DNA of 64,000 nt from contig NC_091973.1 of NCBI RefSeq assembly GCF_036711975.1, forward strand, positions 2,728,001 to 2,792,000. Direction: 5' to 3'. Made by a program: the position numbers and the translations under genes. Source of the stretch: Onthophagus taurus (Eukaryota; Arthropoda; Insecta; Coleoptera; Scarabaeidae). The notes under the pieces are model-generated. The model did not search any database and was not told the DNA's origin. It saw only the letters and a program-made list of their open reading frames with translations. Shown here piece by piece: positions 4,162 to 50,170 of this stretch; the stretch's first letter is position 1, and each line of letters begins with the position of its first letter.

Positions 4162-6070
4162 GTGTAGTGCGATCTATTAATTATTATTATTATTACTCAC
4201 GTTTATGCATTATTTCATTGTACTTTCCATGTGATTTGTTTTTAATTAATAAATTTTACAGTTACTATATCTTTTTATATTGTTTTATTCATATTTACAA
4301 AACAAAGCAAATAAAGGAATGAAATTATCTCGGCCGACCCAAGTATTATTCGTGATATAGGAGGTATCACAAGATACTTGGGATGCTTTCTATATCACAA
4401 GATATTTGGGGCGGCCGACGTCTTCGAAGTCGGCCGAGATTATTTCTTCCACAAATTTCAAGCAGGTAAAGAAAAACAACCTCGGCCGACTTCGAAGACG
4501 TCGGCCGCCCCAAATATCATAAACAATACAATAAGTCTACCTTGTTTGAAATTTATGGTCTTCGATCTCTAATATAACTCATTTAAAACGACCAAAATTA
4601 ATCATTTTTTCATGATAAGTGTAGTGCGATCTATTAATTATTATTATTATTACTCACGTTTATGCATTATTTCATTGTACTTTCCATGTGATTTGTTTTT
4701 AATTAATAAATTTTACAGTTACTATATCTTTTTATATTGTTTTATTCATATTTACAAAACAAAGCAAATAAAGGAATGAAATTATCTCGGCCGACCCAAG
4801 TATTATTCGTGATATAGGAGGTATCACAAGATGAGACTTGGGATGCTTTCTATATCACAAGATATTTGGGGCGGCCGACGTCTTCGAAGTCGGCCGAGGT
4901 TACTTCCTATATCACAAGCAATATTTGGGGCGGCCGACGTCTTCGAAGTCGGCCGAGATTATTTCTTCCACAAATTTCAAGCAGGTTAAGAAAAACAACC
5001 TCGGCCGACTTCGAAGACGTCGGCCGCCCCAAATATCATAAACAATACAATAAGTCTACCTTGTTTGAAATTTATGGACTTCGATCTCTAATATAACTCA
5101 TTTAAAACGACCAAAATTAATCATTTTTTCATGATAAGTGTAGTGCGATCTATTAATTATTATTATTATTACTCACGTTTATGCATTATTTCATTGTACT
5201 TTCCATGTGATTTGTTTTTAATTAATAAATTTTACAGTTACTATATCTTTTTATATTGTTTTATTCATATTTACAAAACAAAGCAAATAAAGGAATGAAA
5301 TTATCTCGGCCGACCCAAGTATTATTCGTGATATAGGAGGTATCACAAGATGAGACTTGGGATGCTTTCTATATCACAAGATATTTGGGGCGGCCGACGT
5401 CTTCGAAGTCGGCCGAGGTTACTTCCTACATCACAAGCAATATTTGGGGCGGCCGACGTCTTCGAAGTCGGCCGAGATTATTTCTTCCACAAATTTCAAG
5501 CAGGTTAAGGAAAACAACCTCGGCCGACTTCGAAGACGTCGGCCGCCCCAAATATCATAAACAATACAATAAGTCTACCTTGATTGAAATTTATGGAAGT
5601 TTATGGACTTCGATCTCTAATATAACTCATTTAAAACGACCAAAATTAATCATTTTTTCATGATAAGTGTAGTGCGATCTATTAATTATTATTATTATTA
5701 CTCACGTTTATGCATTATTTCATTGTACTTTCCATGTGATTTGTTTTTAATTAATAAATTTTACAGTTACTATATCTTTTTATATTGTTTTATTCATATT
5801 TACAAAACAAAGCAAATAAAGGAATGAAATTATCTTGGCCGACTTCGAAGATGTACTATTATTCATGATATAGGAAGTATCACAAGATACTTGGGATACT
5901 TTCTATATCACAAGATACTTGGGGCGGCCGACGTCTTCGAAGTCGGCCGAGGTTACTTCCTATATCACAAGCAATATTTGGGGCGACCGACGTCTTCGAA
6001 GTCGGCCGAGATTATTTCTTCTACAAATTTCAAGCAGGTTAAGGAAAACAACCTCGGCCGACTTCGAAGA
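4162..6070. repeat. Tandem ~460-530 bp duplications with hairpin repeats (MON2 3' flank)
   Basis: A segment beginning GTGTAGTGCGATC recurs at 4162, 4619, 5138 and 5667, giving periods of 457, 519 and 529 bases. Each unit has an AT-rich half containing TTTATGCATTATTTCATTG and a GC-rich half with two to four copies of the palindromic core (arms GGCCGAC and GTCGGCC around TTCGAA). Units two and three are nearly identical. The fourth has changes and ends inside a core copy at about 6070, where SZT2 3' UTR sequence begins. Short open frames in each unit are translations of the repeat and are not annotated as genes. The units differ mainly by gain or loss of one core-plus-spacer module. Confidence 0.9.
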
Positions 6071-6112
6071 ACAATTCGTTAGAAATGAAAGAGACATTTT
6101 ATATCAAAAAAC

Positions 6113-6118
6113 TTTATT
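6113..6118 (-). terminator. Candidate SZT2 poly(A) signal
   Basis: TTTATT on the plus strand reads AATAAA on the minus strand, about 210 bases downstream of the SZT2 stop. It lies only about 40 bases from the edge of the hairpin-repeat array, so the array abuts the transcript end. Confidence 0.45.
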
Positions 6119-6327
6119 GAACTTTTTCGTCAACATTAAATCTAATCCTAAGTTTTATCACAACGATCATTTCGAAACGTAACATTTTCTCTTAATATTG
6201 CACGTGTTTTATTTTGATAAAAATATGGCACTTTGTAGTTTATAAAAAAATATTATAAAACTCTCCTTAGACTTAAAACAGTATTAAAAAAAACACAATT
6301 CTTTTACATTTTAAACTTAACATGATG

Positions 6328-9300
6328 CTATATCATGTTCATCCACAGGTAGAAACAAACACAATTTATAAAACCGTTTATCAAGGCGTTACGGTCTCTA
6401 ACGCACATGTGGGATTCTTCTACATCATCAGCCGGTCTATTTACAATGTATATATTCTTAAAATAAAATTAACAATTAGATAATAATAAAAATTTAATAT
6501 TATCGCTTACCCCTCTTGAAATATCCAAATCCAAAGATAACATCATAAAAGCTCCCGAATACCTTGGATGTAAAATTACATAATGCCAAATAGACTCGTC
6601 GGGTGACACAAAGACTCGATAATGTTCGGAGTATTTCATAACAAGAAGTTTTGCAAAATCTTGGTACCATTGTATGGGTTCTTTTAATAACGTTTCCAAA
6701 TTCGGGTGAGCTTCCGCTAAATTTTCTTGTTTAGCCAACGATTTTAATTCGGAAAATTCTTCAAACGTTAATTTATTTGATTCTTGCGTCGATAACAATT
6801 TATTCCAAAGCATGTGTGTGCGACAATGTATTGTTCCTAAATAATTAAACACATAAATAAAAAACCTTGTTATAAAAATAAATAAATACCTTGTGAAGCC
6901 ATTTCACGAAGTCTCGTTTCCGTGGAATTCGCGCAATCCAAAATAAGTTGTTGCATTAATTGTTCGTGCGAAGAATAATAACCTAAATAATTAACAGATT
7001 CTTGTTTAATTTCGACGCGTTGCCGCGGTTTAGTTTTGTCTTTGGGTTTTTGATTTTCGATCTCATCGGAATCGTCGGTTTCGCGTTCCGACGAAAAGCT
7101 GCGATTATCGTATTTTGAATCTTCTAAAGACGATTCAAGCGAAGCCCCATCGATCGGCGATAACAAATCGGTTTCGTTGGTATCGATCTCTAATTCGTTT
7201 AAGATAACTTCGTCTTTGGGTTTTTCGATTTCGCTTTTAAGTGAAATAACTGTCCGGAATTTTCCGAGTTTCTTTTCGTTATCGAATTTCGGGTACATTT
7301 CTCTTCGGGATGTTAATATCAAATAATATTTCATGTGGAGGCAGTAATCTTTTCCGTTGTCGTAAGGACTTACGTCCGTTACGATCGATGTTACATCAAA
7401 ATCGTCGGTGTGTTGTCTATCTTGCGAGTCTTTATAAGATAATTGAGGTGTGTTTGTGGTTTGTACTAATATGTATTCGACTTCATCGGAAACTTTGTTA
7501 TCTCTCATAATGATATGTTTAAATTGGTACTGTTTAATATGAGCTAATAAGAAGTTGTATAATTGTTTTCCGTCCGTTAATAAATTTGATATTTTTACGG
7601 TATCGGTGTAAACCAAATTTCTCGCGTAATTTGGCGCTTTGCTGTAATATTTCATAAAGTCGTTTAAAAAACTTGTTATATAATAACCGTCTTTTAATTT
7701 GCTGTTGTTGTTTTCAGAGACATAATTACATACGCAGCGTAGATGAAAATCGTATGTAAACGAATGCAAATGCATAAAAAATTTGACCTTATCACATTCG
7801 TCGAGAAAGCTTTGCATAAACTGATTTATTGCCGCTTTTGTGTTATTATTGTGTAACCGATTGTATTCAATCGCGTGGAGTTTCGTTATCAGGAAAGGTT
7901 CTTTTAATTCAATCGTAAATATTAAAATTCCCCCTAACAAAGCTTTTTGCATAAAATGGATGTTTTCGAATAAAAAATTCGACGATTTTTTGTCATTCTT
8001 TTCAACTTGTAATGTCATAAAACCCAACGTTTGCAAATAATGTTTATATTCGGAAATAAAGTACGTGCACAATTCTTGATGCCACGATTCGTCTTGTTCG
8101 TCCATTTGCAAATCGAAACTTGTATCGCCCGTCGGTACAATTGTATGATCTCGAGTTCTCGCCGCCTTTACTCGCCATCTCGATAAAAATAATAACGGCG
8201 TGTGACAATAGTGAATATTTCTTGAATTTTGCATCAAAATATGTATTTGGGAATGCGTTGCAGTGCTACTTCGCGATTGATACATCGAGTGCAAAGCTTT
8301 TAAATCATCACGGTGTCGTTTATTCGACTGTTTTATCTCGCACATTTCCAACATATTCGTTACTACAGAATCCATATAAGGCGATACGATTCGATAAGTG
8401 TCTTTAAAGGACTCTATGAATGTTGGGATTGCGTTTACGCTTGCTTGAGACCTTCTTGTTCGATCCCTTGGAAATTTCGACATCAAATCTACGTCGCACA
8501 TACTATTTATATATGGGTTGTTTGGGCCAACGAAAGGCGATCTACTTATAATTTGATCGTGAAACATTCCGAGTTTTTGTGCTGTAATCGAAGATAATAG
8601 ACATCCTCTCATACATAACCAATGACTTAAATTAGTCGTTTGATCTATTAATTTATCCATCGCATCTTTCGACCAGTTATAAACGTATAAAGTAACCTCG
8701 GTGTTGGTTATTTTAGCCCATAAAATTCTTTGTCGGGGTATAAAGCGATTATTTATCGATGTTGGGGGGTATTTAAAAATTTGTTTTAATGATGTATCGT
8801 TAGCTAAGTTTGCATCACCATTTTGACATATTTTCCAATGATTAAAACTTCTCGCAATCAAAATGTATTCGTTTGAGTATGAAGTGGAGATGTAAGGACG
8901 ATAAGTATCGGAATGGCTATCGTAAATGAAGACTCTAACGGCATCTGATGATATATTTCCGATAAGTCCTTGTAGTTCTTTAACTACCGTATGTAAGGAA
9001 TGTTGGCTGCATAGATTTAAAATTGTTTTTCTTACTGAAGGCACGCCGAGGATATCAGAAAATTTAAACCACATGGGTAAAATAACGCGGTATGTTTCAG
9101 AAAGTTGGCCTTCCTCGCCTAATTCATAAGGATCCATTTTAACCATTGGTTTAGGGATAGAATTTTTTGATAAATCCTTAACGAATAAATCTCTCGTAAG
9201 TAATTTTTGGACCGATAAATTCTCCGTTAACCGTTTCTTATACGTCTGAGAAGGCAATTTATCAAATTTTAACTCATAATTTATAATTCTCGATTTCATA

Positions 9301-12300: not shown

Positions 12301-15300
12301 GAATCAACACAAGTAACGTAATTTTTTAAATCATCTATTGACGTTGGAATAAACGCTAATATAACGTGCGTTACGGAGACTCCTTTTAAAAAACAACGCC
12401 ATCGAACGTTCGGGATTTCACGCGAAACACTCGGATGTCTTGAAAATATATGTTCCGTAAATTTCATTGAATCTTCGATTTCTAATTCACGATCGTGAAG
12501 GCAAATCATATCGTTGTATAAATTTTCTAGTAATAAAAGATTCGCTTTTTCAACGTCTCCTTTTCTATCATTGTTACCTGTTTAAAAAAATTAATTATTA
12601 AATATACGGTGTTTTATTTTAGGAAGAAATAATCTCGTCCGACGTCTTCGAATTCAGCCGAGATTACTTCCTATATCACGAACATAATTTGGAACAGGAT
12701 ACTTTATTTGCAGAAAGTTGACAAAATTGATAGCAAAGACACTAAGAGATGTAAGGAGCTCGGTACAGATACAAGAAAATATTTCACAAACTTTAGAAAT
12801 AAACTACGGACTGCGACAAGGAGGCGTGTTATCGTGTTAGATAATAATATTAAGTTAACTTACCTTCTGAAAACATCGAAAATAATAATTCAGTTTGTTG
12901 ACATAATTTTAAAATAGTAATAGGATTGAAAGTAAATGGAATATGTTGTATTCGTTGTACTAATAATGGAATCCAAACGGAACCGGTTTCGTCATTTTTG
13001 CCATTATCATCCGCAGCGCATCTCGAGAGCATATGAGATCGGAAACTTGAGCTTTGCCTAGAGAGCCTGGGCGAATCAAAAATTTCATTTTGTTTTTGTT
13101 GACACATCAAACTGAGATGTTCAAGTGTTAATAAAGAGTTGACACAATTATAATCAGACCGACGTATCTTAAAAAAAATTAATTACATTAAATACTAAAC
13201 ATTTTATATGCTAAGTTACTTCGTCGCTTAATTCATAATAATATTTATTTTCCATGTATTGTACTCTAGAAGATTGATTAACTTCAACTGTGCCATATTG
13301 AGGTTCAATCCAAACTTCGGTAACAATTTGAAGTTCGGTGTCAGTTTCGCCTTCTTGTTCGTCCTCAGAGAAACTATCGGCATCGTACGCCAAAGCATCG
13401 TGAGGTGGAAATAAAACATATTGAACGATACAACTTAAAGCGGGGCTCATGGGTAATTCTAAAACCATTGTAATTATTCCGGAAGCCGAATGCGCCAAAT
13501 GAAACCCTTCTTTTAATCGAATTTTCGTAATTGTGGTTAAAATTCTTGAAATAGCTCTCATTTCTAATTTAGGATTCGCGTGATAATTTCCGCTCCAAAT
13601 CCACCGTTGGTGAAACAAATACCTAGATAGCGTTGTAAATAAAGTTCCAGCTAACGGTGAAACGGGAAGACTTTGAGAACTGTGGGGAGGCTGCGTCCCA
13701 TCCGGAAATATAACAGTATGGAACTCACTAGGGACGCGTTCGTATTTGATACAAATTTTCTCTAAAGGTTTATTTAAAAGCGTACAACATTTACTTTCTC
13801 TTTTTTTAATCGGGTTTGATAAATACGTTAAATGAGATAAATCTTTCCGTAACTCTTCGAGAACTTTAAAACGTATCCCACCGGAAGTCCCCGTCATAAA
13901 CCCAACCGTTAACGTTGTACAAGGAAACTTTAACGTTATTCGAATAATGCAAAATAACGGCGAATTATTCTCACGTTCTATCAACTTTAGATACGTATGA
14001 TTATCAATTAGGACAAACGAGGACCATTTTGAAAGGAATTCGTACAACGATGTAGCCGCGAGGCGACATTGAACTATCTAAAAAAAAATTTTAAATAACT
14101 ATAAAAAAAAAATCAATATAAAATATTATTATAATACCTCGTATCTACCAGAAGGATTCATTAAATGAACATACTTTGATAGCGGACTGTCGTGTTTCAA
14201 AATCAAAGAAATCTTGTGCACATGAAACCATTTCCTCCAATTACTGGTTTCTATTTGACAAATGGGCTGCCAAATCGACGTAAATTTCGGACATGACTTG
14301 CCGCTGAAATCCCATTAATCGTACTAAAAATTAACCACCAAACATAAACGAACGTTAAAAATTTTCTTACTTCACCGACAAAATCAGTTTGTTCGAGTCG
14401 TACGTTTGCGACTCATTCGCCGTAAATAACGGCACGCCATTTTTAACGCTTTCGGGTAACGTATACCAAACATTGGATGTTTGAAACGAGCTTAATTGAA
14501 CGACTATATCATTCGTTGCTAATTGTATCAAATGGAGCCAAAATTTTTCAAATACCGCCTGACGGTATGACGATTTCGTTTCTTTTTTCATAAGGCACGT
14601 TATGTCATGTAAAAAATCATATGGAGCTTTAACAAAAAATTATTTCAAAACCGGTGTTAATTTATTTCAAAAACGAACACTTTCTTACCTGTCACGTGTA
14701 TTTCATAATGCGTCACATTCTTGAAAACGGGCCAAGATGATGTTAAGATATATTGAATATAAATATAAGCTTTCCAATGCCTGCTCAATCGGACTTCTAG
14801 TATACCGTTATTTAAACTAACTTTCTAAAAAACAATAAAATAATTAATTATGTGGATATTAGGTTTAGGTAGATTTTTTTCCAATCAACTTACACCGACT
14901 GTGTAACCTTCCCTCATCCGCCTATAAAGTAGAAGTAAAAGAGGCACTTTAACGTCATTTTCAGCTTGTTTTTTGGTAAGTAATGGTGGGACACCATAAC
15001 AAAATGTATTTGGACGCCTCAAAAAAAATTAATTATTAAAAATTAATGAAACAAATAAAAAATAAATCTCTCTTACGATGGTAACTCTTTTTGTACTGTT
15101 GATTGACTAATTTGTACTTTGCTATTAAATGACCAAAATAAATAAAGTTGTTGGAAGGTGTTCATATTTTTTGATGAATTAGGTGGAGGTAAACTTTCTA
15201 AACAAATTCCAAGTGTTGAACAAGATAAAAAATGAAGTAAATCGGAATACGCGACGCATCCCGCGCTTAAATGCGGCGTGAAAGCAGATCCGACTTTAAT

Positions 15301-21430: not shown

Positions 21431-24400
21431 ATGAAAGTTTTGACAGATGCAAATAATTGTTGTGATTTGAATGTGATGTACCAAGAAAAGGAAACAATGG
21501 ATAAAATTGATGGAGAAGGGCAGAAATCTGAAAAGATGTTTACGTTAAAGAAATGGAATGCTGTCGCGATGTGGAGTTGGGATGTGGAGTGCGATACTTG
21601 TGCTATTTGTCGCGTACAAGTAATGGGTAAGTATATTTTTAGGTTATATTTACACCAATTTTTTTTTTAATTTTCAATTTTTTTTTAATTTTGAAGTGTA
21701 TTTTTCGTTTTATAAGAAGGAGAAAGTAACTTTGGAGGTATGTAGATGATAAAATTGAAATTTCCTGTGGAATATATATATACACATACATATATGTACA
21801 AATACAAGGTGTGTATATTTCAATGTTTAGTATGGTTGGAAATTAGAGAAGATTATGTAAAAGTATCCCATAGAAACATCATTCTTACGCATTTTAGCAT
21901 CTCTTTTTCAAACATGTCAGCTAGAACCTTGGCTATTTTGCGGGAACTAATATACAGGCTGTATCTGAATGACTGCAACAAACTTCAAGGCGCGATTCTT
22001 TAGTGAATTTTAAGGGTATTTTGAAAAATGAACCATGGGCGACTTCGGCTCCCCTAAGGAGCTACACCCCTCCAAAAATGGCGGAAAATTTTGGTTTAAT
22101 TTTTTTTTTTCAAAAACCATAAGGAACCCTACTTGTAATTTATGGAAGAAATAATCGCCCTAAGTATTGTTCATGATATTTGGGGCGGCCGAGATTACGT
22201 CTTATATCATGAACCTAACTTGTGGCGGCCGAGATTATTCCATTAACAACTTTGTGGTGGAAATAATCTCGGCTGACTTCGAAGACGTCGGCCGCCTCAA
22301 GTACCATGAACAATACTTAGGGCGGCTGACGCCTTCGAAGTCGCCCGAGATTATTTCTACCATAAAATTGTTAATGGAATAATCTCTGCCGACTTCGAAG
22401 ACGTCGGCCGCCTTAAGTATTGTTCATCGCACTTGGGGCGGCCGACGTCTTCGAAGTCGGCCGAGATTACGTCTTATATCATGAACCTAACTTGGGGCGG
22501 CCGAGATTATTTCTACCATAAACTTGTTAATGGAATAATTAATGGATTACGTCTTATATCATGAACCTAACTTGGGGCGGCCGACGTCTTCGAAGTCGGC
22601 CGAGATTATTTCCACCATAAAGTTGTTAATGGAATAATCTCGGCCGACTTCGAAGACGTCGGCCGCCCTAAGTATTATTCATGATATTTGGAGCGGCCGA
22701 GATTACGTCTTATATCATGAACCTAACTTGTGGCGGCCGAGATTATTCCATTAACAACTTTGTGGTGGAAATAATCTTGGCCGACTTCGAAGACATCGGC
22801 CACCTCAAGTACCATGAACAATACTTAGGGCGGCCGACGTCTTCGAAGTCGCCCGAGATTATTTCTACCATAAAATTGTTAATGGAATAATCTCTGCCGA
22901 CTTCGAAGACGTCGGCCGCCTTAAGTATTGTTCATGGCACTTGGGGCGGACGACGTCTTCGAAGTCGGCCGAGATTACGTCTTATATCATGAACCTAACT
23001 TGGGGCGGCCGAGATTATTTCCACCATAAACTTGTTAATGGAATAATTAATGGATTACGTCTTATATCATGAACCTAACTTGGGGCGGCCGACGTCTTCG
23101 AAGTCGGCCGAGACTATTTCCACCATAAAGTTGTTAATGGAATAATCTCGGCCGACTTCGAAGACGTCGGCCGCCCTAAGTATTATTCATGATATTTGGG
23201 GCGGCCGAGATTACGTCTTATATCATGAACCTAACTTATGGCGGCCGAGATTATTCCATTAACAACTTTGTGGTGGAAATAATCTTGGCCGACTTCGAAG
23301 ACGTCGGCCACCTCAAGTACTATGAACAATACTTAGGGCGGCCGACGTCTTCGAAGTCGCCCGAGATTATTTCTACCATAAAATTGTTAATGGAATAATC
23401 TCTGCCGACTTCGAAGACGTCGGCCGCCTTAAGTATTGTTCATGGCACTTGGGGCGGCCGACGTCTTCGAAGTCGGCCGAGATTACGTCTTCTATCATCA
23501 ACCTAACTTGGGGCGGCCGAGATTATTTCTACCATAAACTTGTTAATGGAATAATTAATGGATTACGTCTTATATCATGAACCTAACTTGGGGCGGCCGA
23601 CGTCTTCGAAGTCGGCCGAGATTATTTCCACCATAAAATTGTTAATGGAATAATCTCGGCCGACTTCGAAGACGTCGGCCGCCCTAAGTATTATTCATGA
23701 TATTTGGGGCGGCCGAGATTACGTCTTATATCATGAACCTAACTTGGGGCGGCCGAGATTATTTCTACCATAAACTTGTTAATGGAATAATTAATGGATT
23801 ATGTCTTATATCATGAACCTAACTTGGGGCGGCCGACGTCTTCGAAGTCGGCCGAGATTAGTTCTACCATAAATTTTAGTAGTACTTGGGGCGGCCGAGA
23901 TTACGTCTTATATCATGAACCTAACTTGGGGCGGCCGAGATTATTTCTACCATAAACTTGTTAATGGAATAATTAATGGATTATGTCTTATATCATGAAC
24001 CTAACTTGGGGCGGCCGACGTCTTCGAAGTCGGCCGAGATTAGTTCTACCATAAATTTTAGTAGTACTTGGGGCGGCCGAGATTACGTCTTATATCATGA
24101 ACCTAATTTGAGGCGGCCGACGTCTTCAAAGTCGGCCGAGATTATTTCTACCATAAAATTGTTAATGGAATAATCTCGGCCGCCCTAAATAATGTTCATG
24201 GCACTTGGGGCGGCCGACATCTTCGAAATCGGCCGAGATTTTTTTTTATATCACGATATATAAGAAATATACACCTCCGGCATGAAATCTACACTACACA
24301 GTCACTTTTTGCGGTTATAAGGGAGTCTCTTAAAGCATTAAAAAGCAAGCTTAAGATGATTTTTCGATGAGAATTTTCTTTAAACCTTACCAAAACCCAA

Positions 24401-27400
24401 TTTGGGAAGTTTTGGTGCTTCAAATGATTAAGTACGGTTCAATTCTTGAGTTATTTGACCTTTTTGATTGATAAAGATTTTCGTTAGAAAATAGAAACTC
24501 TCATTTGGGCAATAATTCAAAAATTAATACCGTAAATAAAAGAATTTTCTAATTTGCTAATTTTCAAATTCATTATACTAAACATTGAAAAAAATTCACC
24601 TATATATATGTATAGTAAAGTTTTATCTTATAAAAACAATCCCGAATTTTATTAATTTCTTTTAATGTCGCACCACAAACGAAACTCCTTCTTGAAGACA
24701 TTTCATTAATAGCGCAACACACTTTGCGGTCAACCGTAGTTAATTATAAATTGTGTTGTACTTTAATGTCGCGATTATTGCACTTGTAATGGGTTACGAA
24801 GTATGAAATTTAATTGTTAAAGTAAACACGATTCTTATTAAATTAGACTTGCAATATATATAAGTTCAAATACATACTTGATCCTAAAATGATTTTATTT
24901 TTGTCTGTGGGAATCTTTTAGCGTAACGAGTTTTGGATTCATCTTCTCTTGTCTCTATTTTTCAAGGTAAAGGTCCTGTTGTTTCAGACATAATAGGCGT
25001 ATTTTAGTTATTTTAGGTAATGTTTATAAAAAAAAATAAAAGCCTTAAACACACTGGTTTTTATTTAGTGTAAAAAAAAGTGTTTATAAATTTTTTTCTT
25101 ACATATAAAGGTATATATTTACAAAATACTTTCTAATTTATCTAATAAAAAAACTATGAAAAATATAAATATCATAAATATAATAACAATTAAAATATAA
25201 ATTGTCGAGATTCGAGTCACGAACTTGAGATTCGGAATAGAACCCATTAAAAGGCGGCGAGTTTTGTCTTAATAGTCTTGATCTGAGCTAGTTATTAATT
25301 AATTTATACTACGGAAGGAGGTGTTTTTATGGTGGATGGTCGGCGGGCAAGTTTTCTTTCGATCGCTTCTAAACTTTTTCCTCTCGTTTCCGGAACGTAT
25401 CGATAAATAAATATTAGGGATACTAAGCATACAACGCCGAATATCCAAAACGTTAGTGATTCCCCAAGAACGTTTAAAGCATCTTGGAATGTTTTGGTTA
25501 CAATAAATGTGCAAGCCCAATTAAAAGCGGTTGCAATTGACGCTGCAGAACCTCGAACCTTAGCGGGTAAAATTTCACCTAACATTAACCAAGGTACGGG
25601 TCCGAAACCTAACGAGAACCCGAGAACGTATAAAACTAAACAAGTTAGGGGTAACCAACCAATTGATTCTACTAATTCATCGTAATTCTTTAATAAATAG
25701 AAATAAATTCCTAAAATAATTATAGTTAAAGTCATCACAGATCCAGATATATATAACAATACTTTGCGACCAACTTTATCTATTAATATAGTAGCTATGA
25801 ATGTTGCGATAAAATTAACTACACCTACAATAATAGTACAAATATGAGATGGAATCGATGATCCAGCTAATTCAAAAATTTGTGTCGTATAAAAAATAAT
25901 TGCGTTAATCCCACTTAATTGTTGGAAAAACATTAAACCTAACGCTATAACCAAAGGTTTTAAATTAGCTTTTTTAAATATATCGGAAAGATGCGAATGG
26001 GACGACAATTTAACGCTTTCTTGATGAGAATTTTCGATGTCATCTAACTCTTTTTGTACATCAGCTTCACGTCCTCGTAAATATTGCAACGCTTTTCTTG
26101 CATCTTCAACTTTATCTTTGGATACATACCATCTTGGCGTTTCCGGAATAAAAAACATCAATATTAAAAATGGCACTGGAAGTGCGATTCCTAAATAACC
26201 AAGTTGGTACCAAGTTAAATAACTCCCAGCCGTGAAACATAAAACGATTCCCATATTGCCGAAAGCAGTCGGCAATAAACCTAATATTCCACGGACTTCC
26301 GGTTGTATCGTCTCACCCAAATACACCGGAAGAGTTAACGATGCTATTCCCACGCTTAAACCAACGATGGCTCTCGCGATGTACATGTAGTAAACATTTG
26401 TGGCTAAAGCCGTTAGTATCCATGATATTACAAACATTACAGCTGTTGCTACTATTGTCCATTTTCTTCCGATAAATTCGATTAATTGACCTCCAATTAA
26501 TGCTCCTACAAGAGCTGCTAATGGCATAAATCCAGATAACCACGAGTACTATAAAAAAAAATTAAATCAAATGAACTCTTTTAAAACACAAGCAAATATA
26601 GGTGATTAATGTTAATTTGAAAACTAAATATAACGGACAACAGGAATAAATTTTCCGTTTTTAGTTAAACAAAGTAGGTGATTTTCTAAATTTATTATAT
26701 AACATTTCATAAACACGGACATTCTTCGGTTTCAATTGATTAAGATAACAAAATTCTAATTGTTTTTGAAAGAGAAGTAATTCAAGTTGTTTGTAAACAG
26801 TTTTAAAATAACACAAGATCCAATAACATACCAAATATTTAGTTTCATTTTTTTTTGATTGTTAACAATTAAAACTAGATCTAACAAGTTATGATCAGTT
26901 GCCCAAGCTATGTTCGTGATATAAGAAATAGTCTTGGCCGACTTCGAAGATGTCCACTCCAAGTACCATGAATTTTTTTTTATTATTTCTACCATAAAGT
27001 TGTTAATGGAATAATCTCGGCCGACTTCGAAGACGTCGGCCGCTCTAAGTATTGTTCATGGTACTTGAAGCGGCCGACGTCTTCGAAATCGGCCGAGATT
27101 ACTTTTTATATGGCGAACCTAAGTCAAGGCGGCCGACGTCTTTGAAGTCGGCCGAGATTACTTCTTATATCACGAATCTAACTTGGGGCGGCCGACGTCT
27201 CCGAAGTCGGCCGAGATTATTTCTTCCATAAAGTTGTTAATGGTATCCCTTAGGATTCGGAGATCACTTCCAGGACGTCGGCCGCCCCAAGTTATGTCCG
27301 TGATATAAGAAATAATCTCGGCCGACTTCGAAGACGTCGGCCGCCCCAAGTTAGGTTCGTGATATAAGAAGTAATCTAGGCTGACTTCGAAGACGTCTTC

Positions 27401-30400
27401 GAAGTCGGCCGAGATTATCTCTTTCAAAAAGTTGTTAATGGTATCTCTTAGGATTCGGAGATCACTTCGAGGATATCGGCCGCCCCAAGTTATGTCCGTG
27501 ATATAAGATGTAATCTCGGCCGACTTCGAAGACGTCGGCCGCCCTACGTATTGTTCATGATGCTTAGGGCGGCCGATGTCTTCGAAATCGGCCGATATTA
27601 CTTTTTTTATCGCGAACCCAACTCAGGGCGGCCGCGGTCTTCGAAGTCGGCCGAGATTATTTCTTCCATAAAGTTGTTAATGGTATCCCTTAGGATTCTG
27701 AGATCACTTCCAGGACGTCGGCCGCCCCAAGTTATGTCCGTGATATAAGAAATAATCTCGGCCGACTTCGAAGACGTCGGCCGCCCTGAGTTAGGTTCGT
27801 GATAGAAGAAGTAATCTCGGCCGACGTCTTCGAAGTCGGCCGCCCTACGTATTGTTCATGATGCTTAGGGCGGCCGATGTCTTCGAAATCGGCCGATATT
27901 ACTTTTTTTATCGCGAACCCAACTCAGGGCGGCCGCGGTCTTCGAAGTCGGCCGAGATTATTTCTTCCATAAAGTTGTTAATGGTATCCCTTAGGATTCT
28001 GAGATCACTTCCAGGACGTCGGCCGCCCCAAGTTATGTCCGTGATATAAGAAATAATCTCGGCCGACTTCGAAGACGTCGGCCGCCCTGAGTTAGGTTCG
28101 TGATATAAGAAGTAATCTAGGCTGACTTCGAAGACGTCGGCCGCCCTGAGTTAGGTTCGTGATATAAGAAGTAATCTAGGCTGACTTCGAAGACGTCGGC
28201 CGCCCTAAGTATTGTTCATGATGCTTAGGGCGGCCGATGTCTTCGAAATCGGCCGATATTACTTTTTTTTATCGCGAACCCAACTCAGGGCGGCCGACGT
28301 CTTCGAAGTCGGCCGAGATTATTTCTTCTATAAAGTTGTTAATGGTATCCCTTAGGATTCTGAGATCACTTCCAGGACGTCGGCCGCCCCAAGTTATGTC
28401 CGTGATATAAGAAATAATCTCGGCCGACTTCGAAGACGTCGGCCGCCCTGAGTTAGGTTCGTGATAGAAGAAGTAATCTCGGCCGACTTCGAAGACGTCT
28501 GCCGCCCTAAGCATCATGAACAATACTTAGGGCGGCCGACGTCTTCGAAGTCGGCCGAGATTACTTTTTCTATCGCGAACCCAACTCAGGGCGGCCGACG
28601 TCTTCGAAGTCGGCCGAGATTATTTCTTCCATAAAGTTGTTAATGGTATTCCTTAGGATTCGGAGATCATTTCGAGGATATCGGCCGTCCCAAGTTATGT
28701 CCGTAATATAAGAAATAATCTCGGCCGACTTCGAAGACGTCGGCCGCCCTGAGTTAGGTTCGTGATATAAGAAGTAATCTCGGCCGACTTCGAAGACGTC
28801 GGCCGCCCTAAGTATTGTTCATGATGCTTAGGGCGGCCGATGTCTTCGAAATCGGCCGATATTACTTTTTTTATCGCGAACCCAACTCAGGGCGGCCGAC
28901 GTCTTCGAAGTCGGCCGAGATTATTTCTTCTATAAAGTTGTTAATGGTATCCCTTAGGATTCTGAGATCACTTCCAGGACGTCGGCCGCCCCAAGTTATG
29001 TCCGTGATATAAGAAATAATCTCGGCCGACTTCGAAGACGTCGGCCGCCCTGAGTTAGGTTCGTGATATAAGAAGTAATCTCGGCCGACTTCGAAGACGT
29101 TGGCCGCCCTAAGTATTGTTCATGATGCTTAGGGCGGCCGATGTCTTCGAAATCGGCCGATATTACTTTTTTTATCGCGAACCCAACTCAGGGCGGCCGA
29201 CGTCTTCGAAGTCGGCCGAGATTATTTCTTCTATAAAGTTGTTAATGGTATCCCTTAGGATTCTGAGATCACTTCCAGGACGTCGGCCGCCCCAAGTTAT
29301 GTCCGTGATATAAGAAATAATCTCGGCCGACTTCGAAGACGTCGGCCGCCCTGAGTTAGGTTCGTGATAGAAGAAGTAATCTCGGCCGACTTCGAAGACG
29401 TCTGCCGCCCTAAGCATCATGAACAATACTTAGGGCGGCCGACGTCTTCGAAGTCGGCCGAGATTACTTTTTCTATCGCGAACCCAACTCAGGGCGGCCG
29501 ACGTCTTCGAAGTCGGCCGAGATTATTTCTTCCATAAAGTTGTTAATGGTATTCCTTAGGATTCGGAGATCATTTCGAGGATATCGGCCGTCCCAAGTTA
29601 TGTCCGTAATATAAGAAATAATCTCGGCCGACTTCGAAGACGTCGGCCGCCCTGAGTTAGGTTCGTGATATAAGAAGTAATCTCGGCCGACTTCGAAGAC
29701 GTCGGCCGCCCTAAGTATTGTTCATGATGCTTAGGGCGGCCGATGTCTTCGAAATCGGCCGATATTACTTTTTTTATCGCGAACCCAACTCAGGGCGGCC
29801 GACGTCTTCGAAGTCGGCCAAGATTATCTCTTTCAAAAAGTTGTTAATGGTATTCCTTAGGATTCGGAGATCACTTCGAGGATATCGGCCGCCCCAAGTT
29901 ATATCCGTGATATAAGAAATAATCTCGGCCGACTTCGAAGACGTCGGCCGCCCTGAGTTAAGTTCGTGATATAAGAAGTAATCTCGGCCGACTTCGCAGA
30001 CGTCGGCCGCCCTAAGTATTGTTCATGGTACTTGGGGCGGCCGACGTCTTCGAAGTCGGCCGAGATTATTTCTACCATAAAGTTGTTAATGGTATCCCTT
30101 AGGATTCGGCGATCACTTCGAGGAAGTCGGTCGTCCTAATTATTGTTCATAATACTTGCGGTTTAATCAAGTCTAAACCGGTGGAATAAAAATAAAACTT
30201 ATTTTAAAATATTACTAACATCTCCAAACCAAAATTTAAATATATTTTATTTATCTCAATTGAAATAAAATTCTTTTCAAGATAAAGAAATTTTGAAATA
30301 AAAAAACAAAAACATATTTACACAGAATAAATTTTTAACGGAAAATTTAATTTGATTAACGTTAAATCTAATTAGTAGATAACCCAAAAAGAAAAAAAGA

Positions 30401-37762: not shown

Positions 37763-37764
37763 AA

Positions 37765-38112
37765 TAATCTCGGACGACTTCGAGCGGCCGACAACATGAA
37801 TATAATGAACAATACTTAGGGCGGCCGACGTTTTCGAAGTCGGCCGAGATTATTTCTTCCATAAAGTTGTTAACGGTATCCCTTAGAATTCGGAGATCAC
37901 TTCGAGGACGTCGGCCGCCCCAAGTTATGTCCGTTATATAAGAAATAATCTCGGCCGACTTCGAAGACGTCGGCCGCCTCAAGTTAGGTTCGTGATATAA
38001 GAAGTATCATTTATTTTTTATTTCAATACTTGGAGCGGCCATGGGATGCCATAAATAATTTCTTGTTGTAACAATTTCGGCCCAAATCATCACGAACAAT
38101 ACTTGAGGCGGT
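37765..38112. repeat. Hairpin-repeat cluster (diverged)
   Basis: About four core copies lie between 37770 and 37985, with the spacers AAAGTTGTTAACGGTATCCC and GTTATGTCCGTTATATAAG. Decayed pieces (CGGCCATGGGATGCC, GGCGGTCGAAG) follow to 38112. The flank at 38146-38190 is related to the flank at 4571-4617 of the first array. Confidence 0.85.
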
Positions 38113-38520: not shown

Positions 38521-40406
38521 TCAGCTTTTGGCCGAATGGATTACAAGATGATTGGGCGCGTCTGCAAACATAACTTTGAGTCGATAGGCTTCGGCGACGA
38601 GTAAGCTGATGTGTGAGCCGGTCCATGTTTGCGTTGGTAAATTTTGTAATAAAATCATTAAACCTTGGAAGTCGTTTTCGGTTAAAAGTTGTTCGCGCCA
38701 ATGCAAAAGGAACGCAACGCAAACGTATAATTGAAAGGAAGCGAACGAATCGCTTTCCGCCAAATAGGTGTCCCAAAGTCGTATTGTACACCGCAGTGGC
38801 AATTCCCTAGTTAATAAATTGTTTAACCATCGAAACGAAAATTGAAGATAATCTACGTTGTGCTGTATTAAATGTTTATGCAATGTATGATCTACCCTTT
38901 GTATAAGTTCTTTTAATTGATTTACTTTACGTTGTATCCCAAGTTGTGCAAATACGTAATTGTCTTGGATACCGTCTAAGAACTTTGATAGACACCAAAA
39001 GGAATCCGCTTCGATGATACCTCTTTGATCTTCCGTCAATTTATCAACGTTACACGTTTCAAACGTTTCCCCATCAGGTAAAATTTCTTGTAAAAAAACT
39101 ACATAAAACGGCGTAACCAAATCATTTATTCCTTGTACGTAACCCGACGCTGGATGTCGAATCGCCCAAATAAACAAAATCCTTTCAAACATTTTCTGTA
39201 CAGTATCTTGTTGAAACAATGGTATACTCGGATTCATCCTTGGCACATCAATATGTATTTGGTGATAAGTATCTTGGTATGACTCGTCCCGTTCCGTATC
39301 ATAATACTGCTTTACAAAACTCCAATAATCCTTCCTTTTACGATCTAAAACATCTTGACGTCGCTCCAAATTCACTGGTAAATATCCCGATAATAATCTC
39401 CACGTTATCGCCCTAACTTTCAACGGAATCCCCGACCAACTTAATTGACATAATTCGCTTAAACTCGGCGATCCCGCCAACAATACTTCAAAACGTTCTA
39501 ATTTCGATTCGCAATCTTCGTGACTATTTACACCCGATCCTTTTAAAGGTTGTGGCCGGCCAGGAAATTTTTGTTTAAAATGGTCATTTTCTGTTAAATC
39601 AATCGTATAATCTCCGCTTTGATTACTTGTTGTTGGTAATATATTTTCTAATCTACGATGACGATTTAAAACATTTAATGCAGCTGCCTCGGATACTTTT
39701 TTTGATATCTTCATATCTACGCATATACAATTTTTGTTATATTCATTTATTTTTAACAATACCTTCTGATTGCAGAGGTATGTATTGATAATCAGAATGT
39801 TACAATTTTAGATTTTGATTAAATTCTTTGTGGCAACTATTTTTGTACAAAGGAAATTATTATCTTGTGAAGTAAGATAGCTAGCAAAAAATGATTTGGT
39901 ACAATAAAGACTAATTAAGTATCCAGGGTCAGTTAAAAAGTAATGATAAAACAAAGTTGCGTTTTTTTTTGACACCCTGTATATAATTAATTTGTCTTTA
40001 TTGTACTAAATTGCTTGTATCTTAACATTTTTCACTTACTTCAGGAGATAACAATATGATATTCAATATGATTGATGTGATTAAATTAAATTTAATTTTA
40101 GAAAATTTATAATCACTAGATATATTTATATACATACTTTCTGTGCCTGATATAATACAAAATTCATCATCGTCCATATCCCAAGCATCACTAACTGATG
40201 CTTGGAAATCTTGGAAAGACGTAGACCCGGCGCTCCTCATTTTATGGGTATTTTTAACATCCTTTTTTGGGCTGGGCCTAAAGATCAACTAATTATTAAA
40301 ACAATTGGTCAAAGGTGATATATATAGTTAAATACCTGCCAGGGACGGTTTTGCTATTCTTCTTCCAAAAGGAGCTTCTATCCTCCGGGTGTCTTCCACC
40401 GTCCAT
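38521..40406 (-). CDS. TBC1D22: TBC1D22 Rab GTPase-activating protein
   Basis: Exons 40406..40336, 40277..40138 and 39716..38521 join to 468 residues. TBC proteins speed GTP hydrolysis by Rabs; TBC1D22 is Golgi-associated in vertebrates. The N-terminus, MDGGRHPEDRSSFWKKNSK, matches the family FWKKSNSK motif, and SFQDFQASVSDAWDMDDDE matches the FQEFESNTSDAWD block. The TBC domain spans about residues 164-400. It has both catalytic fingers: Arg in IHIDVPRM (about residue 230) and Gln in GYVQGINDL (about 265). The end, LVAEAYRLKVMFADAPNH, is family-typical. An ATG at 39759 within the last intron would extend exon 3 upstream but lacks the conserved N-terminus, so the three-exon model is preferred. 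The frame is intact. Confidence 0.92.
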
Positions 40407-42974: not shown

Positions 42975-43025
42975 GTGTTAGTGGCGTTAAAGTTTGTGCT
43001 TTTTTTGAATATTTTATTTAAAAAA

Positions 43026-46000
43026 ATGAAGGACGATAGTACGGTTGTGGTTTTGCTGGCGGTAGTCGGTATCGTAGGTCATATCACGGCCTTGTGGATT
43101 TTACAAAAATCTACAAAACAACGCAACCCCAAGCATGTGTTTCTTTTACGGTGCTTAGCCGCAAATGACATGGTGGCCCAAATTGGAATGCTTTCGTTAA
43201 TAATTTTGCTTCCTCATTTTAAAAACAGGTGGATGTGCGCTGGTTTCGTTTTAGTAAGAGCTTTTGGTTTAGGTTCTGGATGCGTTGCGTTTGTTATGGC
43301 AGTCGAAAGATATTTAGCGTTAACGAAACCGTTTTTTTATCAACAAGTACGTTCTTATTTTATTCTGTTTTTAATAGAACCTAAGAATCCCATAAATAAG
43401 GAAATACGTTCAACTTGCACCGAGATAAGAAATTATCAATTTAAGTCCAATGTTTTGTTTGAAAAGAATTTTAGAAAGTTAAACGCATTGAAACGTTTTT
43501 TTTTTATTGCGCCGGAACCAGAAATGTATTCAAAAAATAACGTATTAAATCACGTTTCGTCGGATTATAGTTTAAAATATCAATTTAAATTTAAAACCGT
43601 ATCGACATTTTAAAAAGGGTAAACATCTCGGGAAATATGCGGCACACGTTCGCCAGTCTATAAATTCGCAATTACATTGACGTTAATGTTACCAAAAACA
43701 GCGACGAAATAAAACACTTAAGATAAAATAACTACTTCCATTCCTAGCATATTTCTTTTTCATTTAACTTATTTTTATTTTCAAAAAGTTGCTGCGAAAA
43801 TAACACGTTTATATATATTATATAGAGAGCTATTCCTGAGAACAAATGACTAATAATAAAAATTGTTTCTCATAAGTGACAGATCATTCATACATTGTTA
43901 ATAATTTCATTGTAATATAAGATTCAAAACTAAGCTTAATATATATAACAACCATAGGCGTTTATTTCTGCCTAATGACATGAACGGGATAATTAACACA
44001 ATAATTATGTTAAAGTTATGGTGTTAAGACATAAAATGTAAACAAAACTTAATTTAGCTTAAGGGGGCGGTTCAAAGCGTCGATGTTTATATACGCCGGG
44101 AGAGCTTACGTAGATGTACATTCACGACTTAATGCTACATATTTATAAAAAAGTAAATACGTAGGCTTGAAGTACATATATTACTCTACGGAATGACATA
44201 TTTAGTATTCTAAAATAATCATGACGCTGACAGAAATAAATTACGAAAGTTAGTCATAATAAGGGCTTAATACAAATCGTTCTCTAGAAGAGATTAGGGA
44301 CTTAAACGAGGTGGCAAATATGTCATCTAATGCTTATGTATCTTAGGAACAGATTCCGTATTCGTAAAAGTGCAATAGCTGTGTGATTATTTCATGAATG
44401 TGTTTTTTCTGAAGATATGCGATTTTGTCACAATTTTTAGTCATTACGAAAAGGTGTAAAATGGGTTGCCTAAAATCGACAAAACAGTACTAAGTAAACC
44501 TTTGGCAATTACTTTGTAGATGGCTTTAGGTACTAATTAAAAATTTAAAAAAAAATAAATATAAAAGATAATTAATTGCCAATAAAATGTTATAATACGT
44601 ATTATAAATTGGTTACTAATCTTGAGTTGGTAATAACATTTGTTCATGGCCAATTTCTCTTTTAACTACAGAGTAAATAAATATACCTATATAACAGATA
44701 GAAGATTTGTAGGCAATTATGAATGAGTTGCTGATCACAGTCCTTCCGCCCTAATTTTTAGTGATTATATTAACACTGAGAAAGTAAGAAATAACACAGC
44801 AAATTGTTATCAAGATATAAGAACATAAATAATCTAAAGTAAAGTAATAATAATTTGTAATAGACATAGATAACAATAATACTATTTATTCACAAAAAAA
44901 AACGGTTCTACATTATAAAAAATAATAAAAATCAATAACAACTTTAATTTTATTTTACAATAAAAAAACCATCTTAGAATAACAATTTTTACAAAACTAT
45001 TTCACAATAAAAAACCATCATATACAGGGTGTTTCGGTAACTCGGGGAACAAATGTAACCACATATACTAGAGTGAGAATGATGACGATTCATGTAAAAA
45101 AAATTAGTAAAAGTCCTCAAATTGCAAAGATACAGGCCATCAAAGTTATGAAATTTTAACACATTTTTCTAAATATCTTAAACACTATTTATGGTAAAGG
45201 GTTGAAATTTGGTACAGCGTAAACTAACATCACGTAAAATCATCAGGCAATTTTTGAGTTGGATCGCTACGCGGGAACAATGCTATACAGGCTGTTCATA
45301 AAGTTTGTTTGCTCAGAACTGTTTTATCCTATCATTACCCTACATTTATTTTTGCATTTTCTAATAGTAAATTTAGTTTAGAAACTTTTATCACTCTTAG
45401 AGAATATTGATAAAAACCACCGTTTCCGTATTAAATGCAAAAATGTTAGGCTCCGAATTCAATAACATTAAAAAAAATAAATAAATAAATAATTTGAATT
45501 AGCAATGACAAGTGAAAATCGAACTGAGCTGTCATAACTATTATGTATGCAACGTGTCCAAGTGTAGATTTAGCTAAATCACATTTTTAATTTGTTTTAG
45601 TTGGTTTAATAAAAGAACTCAAAAACAATAAATTGAAAATCAACACTAACAGGAATAATAAAAAAAGTACATAAAATAACAAGACAAGTAATAAAAAATA
45701 CTAAACGATGTTCAAAAACTTAGATTTCTTTTTTTTTGGTAATAGCACTATTGAAATCGGAATCCAACATTTTTGGATTTAACACGAAAACGGTGATTTT
45801 TATGAATATTATCTAAGAGTAATAAAAGTTTCTAAACTAAATTTACTATTAGAAACTGCAAAAATAAATGTAGGGTTATGAAAGAATAAAAAAGTTCTGA
45901 GCAAACAAACTTTAGGAACAGCCGGTAAGCATTGTTCCCGCGGACCGATCCAACTCATAAATTGCCTAACAATTTTACACGACATTGATTTATACTGTAC

Positions 46001-48313
46001 CAAATTTCAGCGCTTTACTGTAAATAGTGTTTAAGATATTTGGAAAAATGTGTTAAAATTTCCTAACTTTGATGGCCTGTATCTTTGAAATTTGAAGACT
46101 TTTACTATTTTTTTTTACATGAATCGTCATCATTTTCACTCTAGTATATGTTGTTAAATTTATTTCCCGAGTCACCGAAACACCTGTATACAATATAATC
46201 AAGTGACGAATTCAGTAATGTTGTAAAATTAAATGCATGAATATTGTTGAAATATTAATCATTGACTGACGAAATTAAACCGATTTTTTTATCAATTTTA
46301 TGAACCCAAGAGGTTCGAATCGCCACCTTAAAGAAAATACTAAAGAGACAAAAAAGTACCACTAAAGTATGTGCTTATAACCCATATTTTTTATGTTAAT
46401 ATTACATAGCGTTAAAAAGTTCTTATAAAATAAATCAAGGGGATGGTGAATTGCATCCCCTTAGAGGGTGCTAGGGAAGGTTAAGGTATGGTTGAAAATA
46501 AGGTATCAGCCAGTAGTACATACATACAAAAATTCAAATTCTATGGTTTACTTATACTCGAAATAAAAGATAAAATGTAAATTTTTGGCTCAACTTTGAC
46601 AGCTCATAGCTCGAAAACAAAAGAGTTGGGACCCTATGTTTATATAAAAAACTTGTGTTATTTTGGCAAGTACTACATCCTAGCAAAGCTTCCCGATTAA
46701 AAACTGATCCACCCTGTATAGGCCAAAAATCTGATTCCTGTGAAATTGGGTCGAAAATGTTTAATATTGTTGTAATCCATTGTTAATGTTGAGAAATTTG
46801 TGTTAACCAACATTTAGGTAATAGAAATATTTGAATAAATAATTGAAAATAAAAATTAATTATTTAAAAGTAAAAATGTTAAGTTATGAAAATAACACCA
46901 ACTATAACAATATTAACATTTCGCAAAAAAAAAAAAAAGAACTCCAAATAATATCGAGAATAGGCATCGCGTAAGGCGTAATATATTCCTCAATGAATAA
47001 AATATTTCAACGGTAGGATGACTAATTGTAAGCTGATATAAAAAAGCGTCGCTATGAATAACTGAATTGCACTCTCGACGACCTCTTTTAACCAACAGCG
47101 GAACTATACAAATTTTTTTTGCACTTTTGCGAACATCACGTGATTGAACCGCGACCTTAATGTGTGAAAAGTTCAAAATAACTACAAACATTGTGATTTT
47201 CTACAAAAACAATCGAGATGTAATAACTTCCGGTTTCTGGTTTCCAGCTTTCGCTATAAGATGTCGTTTTTAATTCAAAAATTTTTATTTATTTTATTAT
47301 TTAATATTTTTTTATTACAGTGTGTAACATTTAGAGTGCTTCAAATAGCAATAGCATCAATTTGGAGTTTTGGTTTATTCCTAACTTATTTGCCATTGGC
47401 GGGTTTTGGAGTTTATTATTCGCCTAATAATGAAACAAATTCGTCAAGACCAGTGTGCAGAAGATACAAAGATGCGAAAGAATTTAAAGATGTTACTTAC
47501 TCTTATGTATATTTTGTTGTGGGTACGTTTAAAAATTAATACTTAATAATTATATTAATAATAATCGATTAAATAAATGTTTTAGGTGTAACTCTATGTA
47601 CTTGTATCGCTTATTGTAATACAAAAGTATTCATGGCACTATCAAGAATGGGAAATCAACGAAAAGTGTTAATTCGAAGAATTAGCAGATCGACTATGAA
47701 CAATCGAGTTGAACGTTGCAGACAAAATGCGACAACTGAAGAATTAGCCTTTGCTAAAGTGATGGCTGTTTTGTGTATTACTTTTATCATTTGTTGGTTA
47801 CCGCAAATGGTAAAGTATATTTTGATTTATTTTGTATTTATTTTTCTTTTGGCTAAGTCTATAAGATTTATTGGGCGCTTGCCAAAAAAATATCTCAATT
47901 TAAACGTAGTTTAATCTAAAATCACATCCTCGTAACCTCTGTGTTGTGTTAATTTATTTGTTTATTTGCGCTACAAATGGCCCTATTTCAAAGAAAATAG
48001 GCGTGATAGTCGTCATTCGTGGTCCGAATAAACATGCGATTACGATTTTCTTTTATAGATCATGATCCCGATCATGCATCTGGACAAGGATAATAAACTG
48101 ACAGTCGGCCTGAATAAGATAGCGGATAGTTTGATTATGTTTTATTTTGCCTTCGATCCCTACATTTATGTCGTACAAAAATATTTTGATAAACGACGGC
48201 AAGCTTATCGAGCCAAAAGGTCAAATTCAAATACGGCGCATAGTTCAACTTCCGTTGGAGCTGGAACTCCTACAGCGGTTTTAATACAACATCCAGAAAA
48301 AGAAGTACTTTGA
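43026..48313 (+). CDS. Rhodopsin-family GPCR, probably prostanoid-receptor-like
   Basis: Exons 43026..43346, 47321..47522, 47586..47809 and 48059..48313 give 333 residues; an in-frame ATG at 42975 would add 17. Seven hydrophobic segments are present. Helix 3 ends with AVERYLALTKPFFYQQ, which closely resembles the ERYLAI-x-PFFY motif of prostanoid receptors. Helix 6 has CWLP and helix 7 has FAFDPYIYVV (DPxxY variant of NPxxY). Cys residues in helix 3 (RWMCAGF) and loop 2 (RPVCRRY) can form the usual disulphide. The nearest family I can suggest is the insect EP4-like prostaglandin receptor. The helix 7 Arg that binds the prostanoid carboxylate in vertebrates is not evident, so the ligand is uncertain. 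Intron 1 is about 4 kb. Confidence 0.75.
43347..47320 (+). other. GPCR intron 1 (4.0 kb)
   Basis: Contains the long inverted-repeat element at 45023-46188 and a one-ended fragment near 46460-46725 ending CCACCCTGTATA, an ACAGGGTG-type mariner terminus. The rest is AT-rich with no feature recognised. Confidence 0.65.
45023..46188. mobile_element. 1.17 kb element with long (~470 bp) terminal inverted repeats
   Basis: Left end TACAGGGTGTTTCGGTAAC and right end GTCACCGAAACACCTGTA are inverted copies, and similarity continues inward along most of each half (for example the ATATACTAGAGTGA and GATGACGATTCATG blocks). About 240 bases of centre (45480-45720) are unpaired. TA flanks both sides. There is no transposase, so it is a large non-autonomous Tc1/mariner-type or fold-back element. 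Confidence 0.8.
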
Positions 48314-49154
48314 AAATACTTTATATTTTTTAAATGTTTAATGTACTATTAACTCATAAAGTTATTTGTCATACGTTATGAGTTAAATGTATTATTGTTA
48401 TGTAGTGCATGCACCCTGCTAGCGACCAAAGGATTATTTTCTATTGGTACTTATGATTTTCTTAAAAAATCATTTTAACTTTTTCATATTGCACGAAAAA
48501 GGTTAAAAACTGTAATCTAGTCAACGTCGTTTGCAAATTTATAAATAAATATAATAATTTTTGTTTCTATTACATGTTTTTTACTAAAGCCTAGGCATCA
48601 AAATTTGATTTTAGTGCCTACGAAAGTCGGAAAAATTGAAAAAAAATTGATTGTATGCACCTTTCCAGATAGAAAAAAACCTTTCACACTGATCTCGTTA
48701 CTGTTTTATTAATTGATTAACCCGTCATCAAAGACGGCAATCATTATTTATTTTAATAACGTTGTAACCACTTAACCTTTTCTTATTGTATGTTAGGCAA
48801 CCACCATGCTGATATTGCACATTAGTTGTATTCGTAATTCTACAATACGCATCGTTTTATGCATATTATTTATTATTGTGATAATTGCGCAAATGCATTT
48901 ATTCATTATTTGTTATTATTTTGTAAATAAAGGATTTTTGTAACCGATTTATGTATTTTATTAACTTCTCCACGACCTTCTTCAAAGCATCTTTGAAAAC
49001 ATCCTGTTTCTCATAAAGTTTTATTCTTTTGGTTGTGTCATTTTGGCAATCTACAAGTGATCACAGATACGTAAAATCCTCCACTACTTCTATTAATCCA
49101 CCATCAATATTTATATTTCCCTTTGATCACTGTGAAGTATTTTTCATGATACTT

Positions 49155-50170
49155 GGAGATTACTTCTTATATCACGAAACGACGTCTTCGAAGTCGGCCG
49201 AGATATTTCTTCCATACAGTTGTTAATATTATCACTCGGGATAAAAGTAGGGCAGAATAAACTTTAAGCAGCGTAGACTTGATTTCACCCAACCCAACCT
49301 ACGTCTTCGAAGTCGGCCGAGATTATTTCTTGTATCACGGGCATAACTTGGGGCGGCCGACGTCCTCGAAGTAATCTCCGAATCCTAAGGGATTAACAAC
49401 TTTATGGAAGAAATAATCTCGACCGACTTCGAAGATGTCGGCCGCCCCAAGTATCATGAACAATACTTAGGGCGGCCGACGTCTTCGAAGTCGGCCGAGA
49501 TTACTTCTTATATCACAAACCAAGATGGGGCGGCCGACGTCTTCGAAGTCGGCCGAGATTACTTCTTATATGACAAACCAAGATGGGGCGGCCGACGTCT
49601 TCGAAGTCGGCCGAGATTATTTCTTATATCACGGACATAAGTTGGGGCGGCCGACGTCCTCGAAGTGATCTCAGAATCCTAAGGGATACCATTAACAACT
49701 TTATGGAAGAAATAATCTCGGCTGACTTCGAAGACGTCGGCCGCCCTAAGTTAGGTTCGCGATATAAAAAGTAATCTCGGCCGACTTCGAAGACGTCGGC
49801 CGCCCTGAGTTAGGTTCGCGATATAAAAAGTAATCTCGGCCGACTTCGAAGACGTCGGCCGCCCTGAGTTAGGTTCGCGCCCTAAGCATCGGCCGCTCTA
49901 AGCATCATGAACAATACTTAGGGCGGCCGACGTCTTCGAAGTCGGCCGAGATTATTTCTTGTATCACGGACATAACTTAGGGTGGCCGATATCCTCGAAG
50001 TGATCTCCGAATCCTAAGGAATACCATTAACAACTTTATGGAAGAAATAATCTCGGCCGACTTCGAAGACGTCGGCCGCCCCAAGTTAGTTTCATGATAT
50101 AAGAAGTAATCTCGGCCGACTTCGAAGACGTCGGCCGCCCCAAGTATCATCTTCGAAGTCGGCCGAGATT
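49155..50170. repeat. Hairpin-repeat array (intergenic)
   Basis: About a kilobase of core palindromes in both orientations, with the same spacer types as the Tret1-intron array (GATCTCCGAATCCTAAG, TTAACAACTTTATGGAAG, GTTAGGTTCGCGATATAAA). A 66-base unit is directly repeated at 49500-49620 and 49740-49870. The array begins and ends inside a core copy. Confidence 0.9.

Follow-up and report, generated by a model that had tools for sequence, protein, structure and literature searches.

How a cell singles out one of its chromosomes is an unsettled question. In Drosophila, the X-linked 1.688 (359-bp) satellite and other satellites of the X and dot chromosomes form short dispersed arrays that are concentrated on one chromosome (PMC4079201, PMC7072490). 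Coverage by these satellites on the X and the dot reaches 52 and 44 times, respectively, that found elsewhere, and they have been proposed to lend these two chromosomes a structural identity (PMC4079201). In beetles, across which the ancestral X is reported to be retained (PMC11753715), a satellite of Omophoita octoguttata, OocSat48, has been mapped solely to the X (PMC11846391), and the excerpts available of two papers on beetle dosage compensation name no DNA target for that process (PMC11856597, PMC11753715). Satellites with inverted subunits and hairpin potential have been described as well, among them TmSat1/2 of the beetle Tribolium madens (PMC13081366) and phBglII400 of a clam (PMC5139131).

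The family described here was found in a window of 64 kb, by which we mean the whole stretch of DNA analysed (C8:2,728,001-2,792,000, in an assembly of 33 contigs, C1-C33). Its core has the arms GGCCGAC and GTCGGCC around GTC and TTCGAA (GGCCGACGTCTTCGAAGTCGGCC, 23 bp). Allowing up to three mismatches, 89 copies of the core were detected in the window and none in 100 dinucleotide shuffles of it. All 89 fall at the six places where the first-pass annotation had put an interrupted-palindrome family (10, 1, 22, 42, 2 and 12 copies, in order of position), which is thus confirmed. The features are as follows.

4162..4330, no strand given: 169-bp stretch to the left of and into the start of cluster 1, with unchanged copies at 4619-4787, 5138-5306 and 5667-5835
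4325..6070, no strand given: cluster 1, ten cores at 4413-6007 in a tandem array with a unit of about 519 bp
12619..12700, forward strand: cluster 2, one degenerate core at 12637-12659 with three mismatches
22140..24245, no strand given: cluster 3, 22 cores at 22271-24234 in mixed orientation, with units of 508, 236 and 182 bp
26925..30150, no strand given: cluster 4, 42 cores at 26936-30061 in mixed orientation, mainly in 301-bp units
28468..28572, no strand given: foldback formed by two inverted boxes, with 45 base pairs and an 8-nt loop
28522..28569, forward strand: example of the 48-bp directional box, with its core at 28534-28556
37765..38112, no strand given: cluster 5, two inverted cores within 37823-37975
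49155..50170, no strand given: cluster 6, 12 cores at 49177-50136 in mixed orientation

The cores had been described as having GC-rich edges in an AT-rich genome, and in 2-kb bins GC rises to 39-49% at the dense clusters (44% at 22001-24000, 41% at 26001-28000, 49% at 28001-30000 and 39% at 48001-50000) against 28-37% in the remaining bins up to 56 kb. The arrays are short and lie among genes, with six clusters in 64 kb near frames for Mon2, HOOK, a sugar transporter and TBC, and no cluster overlaps these four Pfam-supported frames. A frame inside cluster 4 (27173-27622), the one in-cluster frame examined, had no Pfam match. The earlier statement that cores lie in no exon is thus borne out in part, by comparison with open frames and not with exon borders. 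The window also contains an 84-bp repeat with AGCCAATCAGAGCGC at 50283-50439, which has about 190 sites in the genome and served as a control repeat, and coding tandem repeats (18, 30, 36 and 60 bp) at 56377-57038 within an open frame of 1,203 aa that had no match in Pfam.

In the whole 291-Mb assembly the exact 23-bp core was counted 694 + 678 = 1,372 times, and cores with up to two mismatches 1,123 + 1,102 times; such genome-wide repeat counts are lower bounds. The core pattern read backwards, used as a control, gave no matches in the assembly. The first-pass annotation had removed the GTC to leave a palindrome of 20 bp without mismatches, but this palindrome occurs at one site in the assembly versus 1,372 exact interrupted cores; it was rejected as the underlying form, and the GTC is part of what is conserved. 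What the copies share is a directional box, about 48 bp long, that consists of AATACTTGGGGC, the core GGCCGACGTCTTCGAAGTCGGCC and GAGATTATTTCTT and is no symmetric palindrome. Dissimilar flanks were found at 67 of 225 sites from the fetched loci and the window. Across these 67 contexts the right side GAGATTATTTCT, which lay outside the search pattern used for the 225 sites, was kept at 64–97% per position; conservation was lower, at 45–91%, on the left side ACTTGGGGC. Agreement between copies drops beyond about -12 and +35, and outside the unit of about 48 bp spacers vary widely from cluster to cluster.

A full-text search with GGCCGACTTCGAAG, a 14-base piece of the core, returned no paper; this search covered the literature and not Repbase or Dfam. 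In the CENP-B box, a motif of 17 bp, TTCG, A and CGGG stand at fixed distances from one another; the core was rejected as such a box by inspection, since its TTCG and CGGC lie four bases apart and not seven. A possible parallel with palindromes of the PSR B chromosome of Nasonia was dropped, a full-text search for all of its terms together having found no paper.

The family is close to chromosome-specific, a property that is invisible from the window alone. Of the 1,372 exact cores, C1-C7 carry 48, and the remaining 1,324 fall from C8 onwards; among the first 100 listed, 52 are on C8. Two rarer forms of the element, for which all sites were listed, have 20/21 and 29/32 sites on C8 (49/53), with the four remaining sites on C1, C6 and C7 and none of the 53 on C9-C33. 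For a 42-bp form with 120 sites, the first 100 listed comprise 95 at C8:1.78-5.41 Mb and five on C1-C7. C8 spans 21 Mb, and C1-C3 together with C5-C7 at least 190 Mb. If the 1,324 cores are distributed as the sites of the two full lists, their number per Mb would by estimate be more than 200 times higher on C8 than on C1-C7. Of the 190 sites of the control repeat, which also comes from this window, the first 100 listed were found on C1 (36), C2 (22), C3 (22), C5 (3), C6 (14) and C7 (3), so that this unrelated dispersed repeat is spread over six of C1-C7 and does not share the confinement to C8. On C8 itself at least 48 clusters (gap above 5 kb) were distinguished among 156 listed sites of several forms, and among the matches listed the sites crowd in C8:1-5.4 Mb rather than along the whole contig.

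Some copies outside C8 have features of their own. At two loci on C1 (L001 and L002, at 3.36 and 3.98 Mb) the box lies within another repeat and has quite different spacers, with box copies about 300 bp apart in L001. At two loci on C3 (L012 and L013, at 25.73 and 26.70 Mb) a diverged core, GGCCGATGTCTTCGAAAACGGCC, is followed by GTGTT and recurs with its own flanks; this form could represent an older sister of the family, located off C8.

Judging from its gene content, C8 is probably the ancestral X. CAPS (2.82 Mb) and both plexins (1.01 and 4.19 Mb) are on C8, inside the box-rich stretch, and unc-13 is on C10, so that three of four marker genes of Drosophila chromosome 4 are on C8. Of seven TGF-beta genes only two are on C8; L049 has a resemblance to maverick, an identity that we do not claim. 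CAPS and unc-13 were separated by reading their translations. Drosophila chromosome 4 carries PlexA, PlexB, unc-13 and three genes of the TGF-beta family (PMC10847715) as well as Caps (PMC3447959), and this chromosome, Muller element F, is an ancient insect X (PMC10715201). It is the presence of CAPS and both plexins, whose relatives lie on that chromosome, that makes C8 probably the X. No statement that the beetle X corresponds to element F was found in the excerpts available of the beetle X literature. As to the insect itself, an EcR fragment scored highest against the structure chain 2nxx_E (219 bits, ahead of 209 for 4ozt, 188 for 1z5x and 167 for 1r20) and a USP fragment against 2nxx_A (196 bits, ahead of 180 for 1xiu and 175 for 1z5x). 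The structure 2nxx is from Tribolium, and these matches indicate no more than a beetle or something close to one. A search of the whole genome for telomere arrays (TTAGG/TCAGG) gave two overlapping internal hits on C3, and its reversed control gave 10; such arrays are thus almost absent and do not help to place the insect in an order.

A search with the complete 48-bp box yielded 299 sites, of which 263 had both flanks recognisable and showed a mean divergence of 20.9% on the left, 3.6% in the core and 13.7% on the right, the flank values reflecting in part the exchange of whole modules rather than point changes. Counting the window as one locus, the core diverged less than the flank on its left in all 34 loci and less than the one on its right in 28 of them, with four ties. 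Most loci were retrieved through an exact core, which biases them toward conserved cores; the window was not so chosen, and its 83 sites alone gave 2.5% for the core, 24% for the left and 11% for the right flank. When sites were picked by the right flank only, the core was recognisable in 172/261, with 6.0% divergence against 30% on the left; when they were picked by the left flank only, it was recognisable in 135/221, with 6.3% against 23.5% on the right. The claim of the first-pass annotation that the core is steadier than its surroundings thus holds across loci (3.6% against 21% and 14%), and the picture within single arrays is mixed. The core differed at 4.3% against 8.9% for the spacer in the 301-bp array, and in the array at 4.1–6.1 kb at 0/161 positions against 6 or 8/1,110. 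In the array at 22–24 kb, one way of cutting the units gave 0/276 changes in the core against 57/968 in the spacer and another gave 2.4% against 2.6%. In most loci the flanks are kept less strictly than the core's three CpGs and its central bases.

The explanation that we favour, tentatively and from sequence, is a chromosome-specific euchromatic satellite network in which the 48-bp box is a candidate recognition site. Copies would have spread chiefly inside C8 through local duplication and reinsertion, assisted by hairpins, and a sequence-specific protein would bind the box and mark the chromosome, for which reason the box would be kept. Such marking is modelled on the proposals for the Drosophila X and dot satellites. 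Counted against this explanation are the position of unc-13 on C10, the two of seven TGF-beta genes on C8, the array-internal values of 2.4% and 2.6%, the retrieval bias toward exact cores, the commoner one-sided changes in the arms (see below) and the crowding at C8:1-5.4 Mb. A compact conserved box that is found almost only on the contig with ancient-X genes is a concrete candidate for a chromosome label. A bolder version, which we consider rather unlikely, would make the box a DNA address label of the ancient insect X that is read by a protein. The arrays would then be entry sites near genes, from which dosage compensation or another chromosome-wide system would spread, and new arrays would arise by the copying of local DNA around a seed box.

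Protein recognition of the box is favoured only narrowly over a selfish satellite without host function, whose probability is almost as high. In such a satellite the hairpin box would stall replication, provoke tandem duplication and reinsertion and so drive its own copying, and the family would stay on C8 either because new copies insert close to where they came from or because they are tolerated there. The construction of the arrays argues for this. The 169-bp edge stretch recurs in the units of cluster 1, at 4.1–6.1 kb, and had no match in 29 other loci compared, its recurrence indicating that adjoining DNA was copied together with the box. The modules occur in several different arrangements, and long foldbacks are present. 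Moreover, in L027 and L026 copies of the same cluster differ solely in whether they contain the core (23 or 25 bp), and a junction in L018 is similar to these core-less junctions. As three sister units in L026 retain the core, its loss is a simpler account than its insertion, and hopping of the 23-bp core alone was rejected on account of these three units and because flanks move with the core. The occurrence of core-less copies next to core-bearing ones points to the hairpin as a site of change, in line with the preference of clam satellite junctions for a palindrome (13 of 16 phBglII400 junctions lie in the longer one; PMC5139131). Alone, however, a selfish satellite leaves unexplained why the CpGs and central bases are so strictly conserved relative to the flanks, and why the asymmetric form is commoner than the perfect palindrome, which is the better hairpin. 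If the family is selfish, it offers a clear example of a hairpin box that has outlasted its replaced spacers.

That inverted cores could fold into long hairpins had been anticipated by the first-pass annotation, and foldback arms in the window indeed reach 224 nt with 94% complementarity, but no inverted pair of at least 70 nt was found at 4300-6100. Among close neighbours (<400 bp apart; window and fetched loci), 78 were tandem, most often at 59 bp (28 cases), and 73 and 69 were in the two inverted orders. Changes in both arms that compensate each other were seen seven times against a mean of 2.8 in shuffles, a number reached in 1.6% of 2000 shuffles by a test that takes copies as unrelated and leaves their kinship uncontrolled. 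The proposed selection on the palindrome is consistent with this modest excess, but one-sided arm changes outnumber the compensated ones. Strict upkeep of arm pairing was rejected as weakly supported by seven compensated doubles, whose excess could have its source in hairpin-templated repair or in selection. One locus on C1 (L006, at 39.97 Mb) has two box units between a 9-bp inverted repeat, GTTTTTAGT ... ACTAAAAAC, identified by eye, which may mark an insertion point within a hairpin loop. An origin from a now decayed transposon of the foldback or MITE type, with inverted boxes as its ends and the arrays as decayed tandem amplifications, would account for the head-to-head boxes that fold into long hairpins and lie at a fixed spacing of 53 bp in 26 of the 69 close pairs of that order. 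Such an origin is nevertheless improbable, as the contexts have nothing in common beyond the box and no shared ends, boxes are single or tandem at many loci, and inspection of L006 by eye, in this one case, found no direct target-site duplication. Functional small or hairpin RNAs from inverted arrays are very improbable in spite of the very stable predicted foldbacks (z of -6.7 to -16.6 in three window pieces), given that many boxes are single or tandem, that no Rfam family reached its gathering score in the window and that compensated changes are few.

Returning to the chromosome-specific network with its candidate recognition site, the closest described systems differ from the C8 family in several respects. 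The 1.688 satellite repeats as whole monomers, with an excess of X over autosome coverage of 7- to 52-fold (PMC4079201, PMC7072490), whereas the C8 family has only about 48 bp common to very different spacers and an excess per Mb estimated at more than 200-fold; it does not repeat as a whole monomer of about 359 bp, as judged by its many spacings (58–66, 301, 317, 399, 508, 519 and 582), with differing spacers, and not by sequence. OocSat48, compared by its description, is a monomer family mapped by FISH, and no box shared among unrelated spacers is described for it in the excerpts available (PMC11846391). TmSat1/2 form multi-megabase regions on all chromosomes (PMC13081366), whereas the arrays of the C8 family are of a few kb or less, lie among genes and are nearly all on one contig. 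If the address-label version were true, the box would act as the MSL recognition element does in Drosophila, but that element is a GA-rich 21-bp motif (PMC11856597), and by inspection the C8 core is a GC-rich palindrome and not GA-rich. The C8 family resembles the chromosome-specific satellites already described but differs from them in that its copies have no more in common than an asymmetric box, about 48 bp long, while the spacers change.
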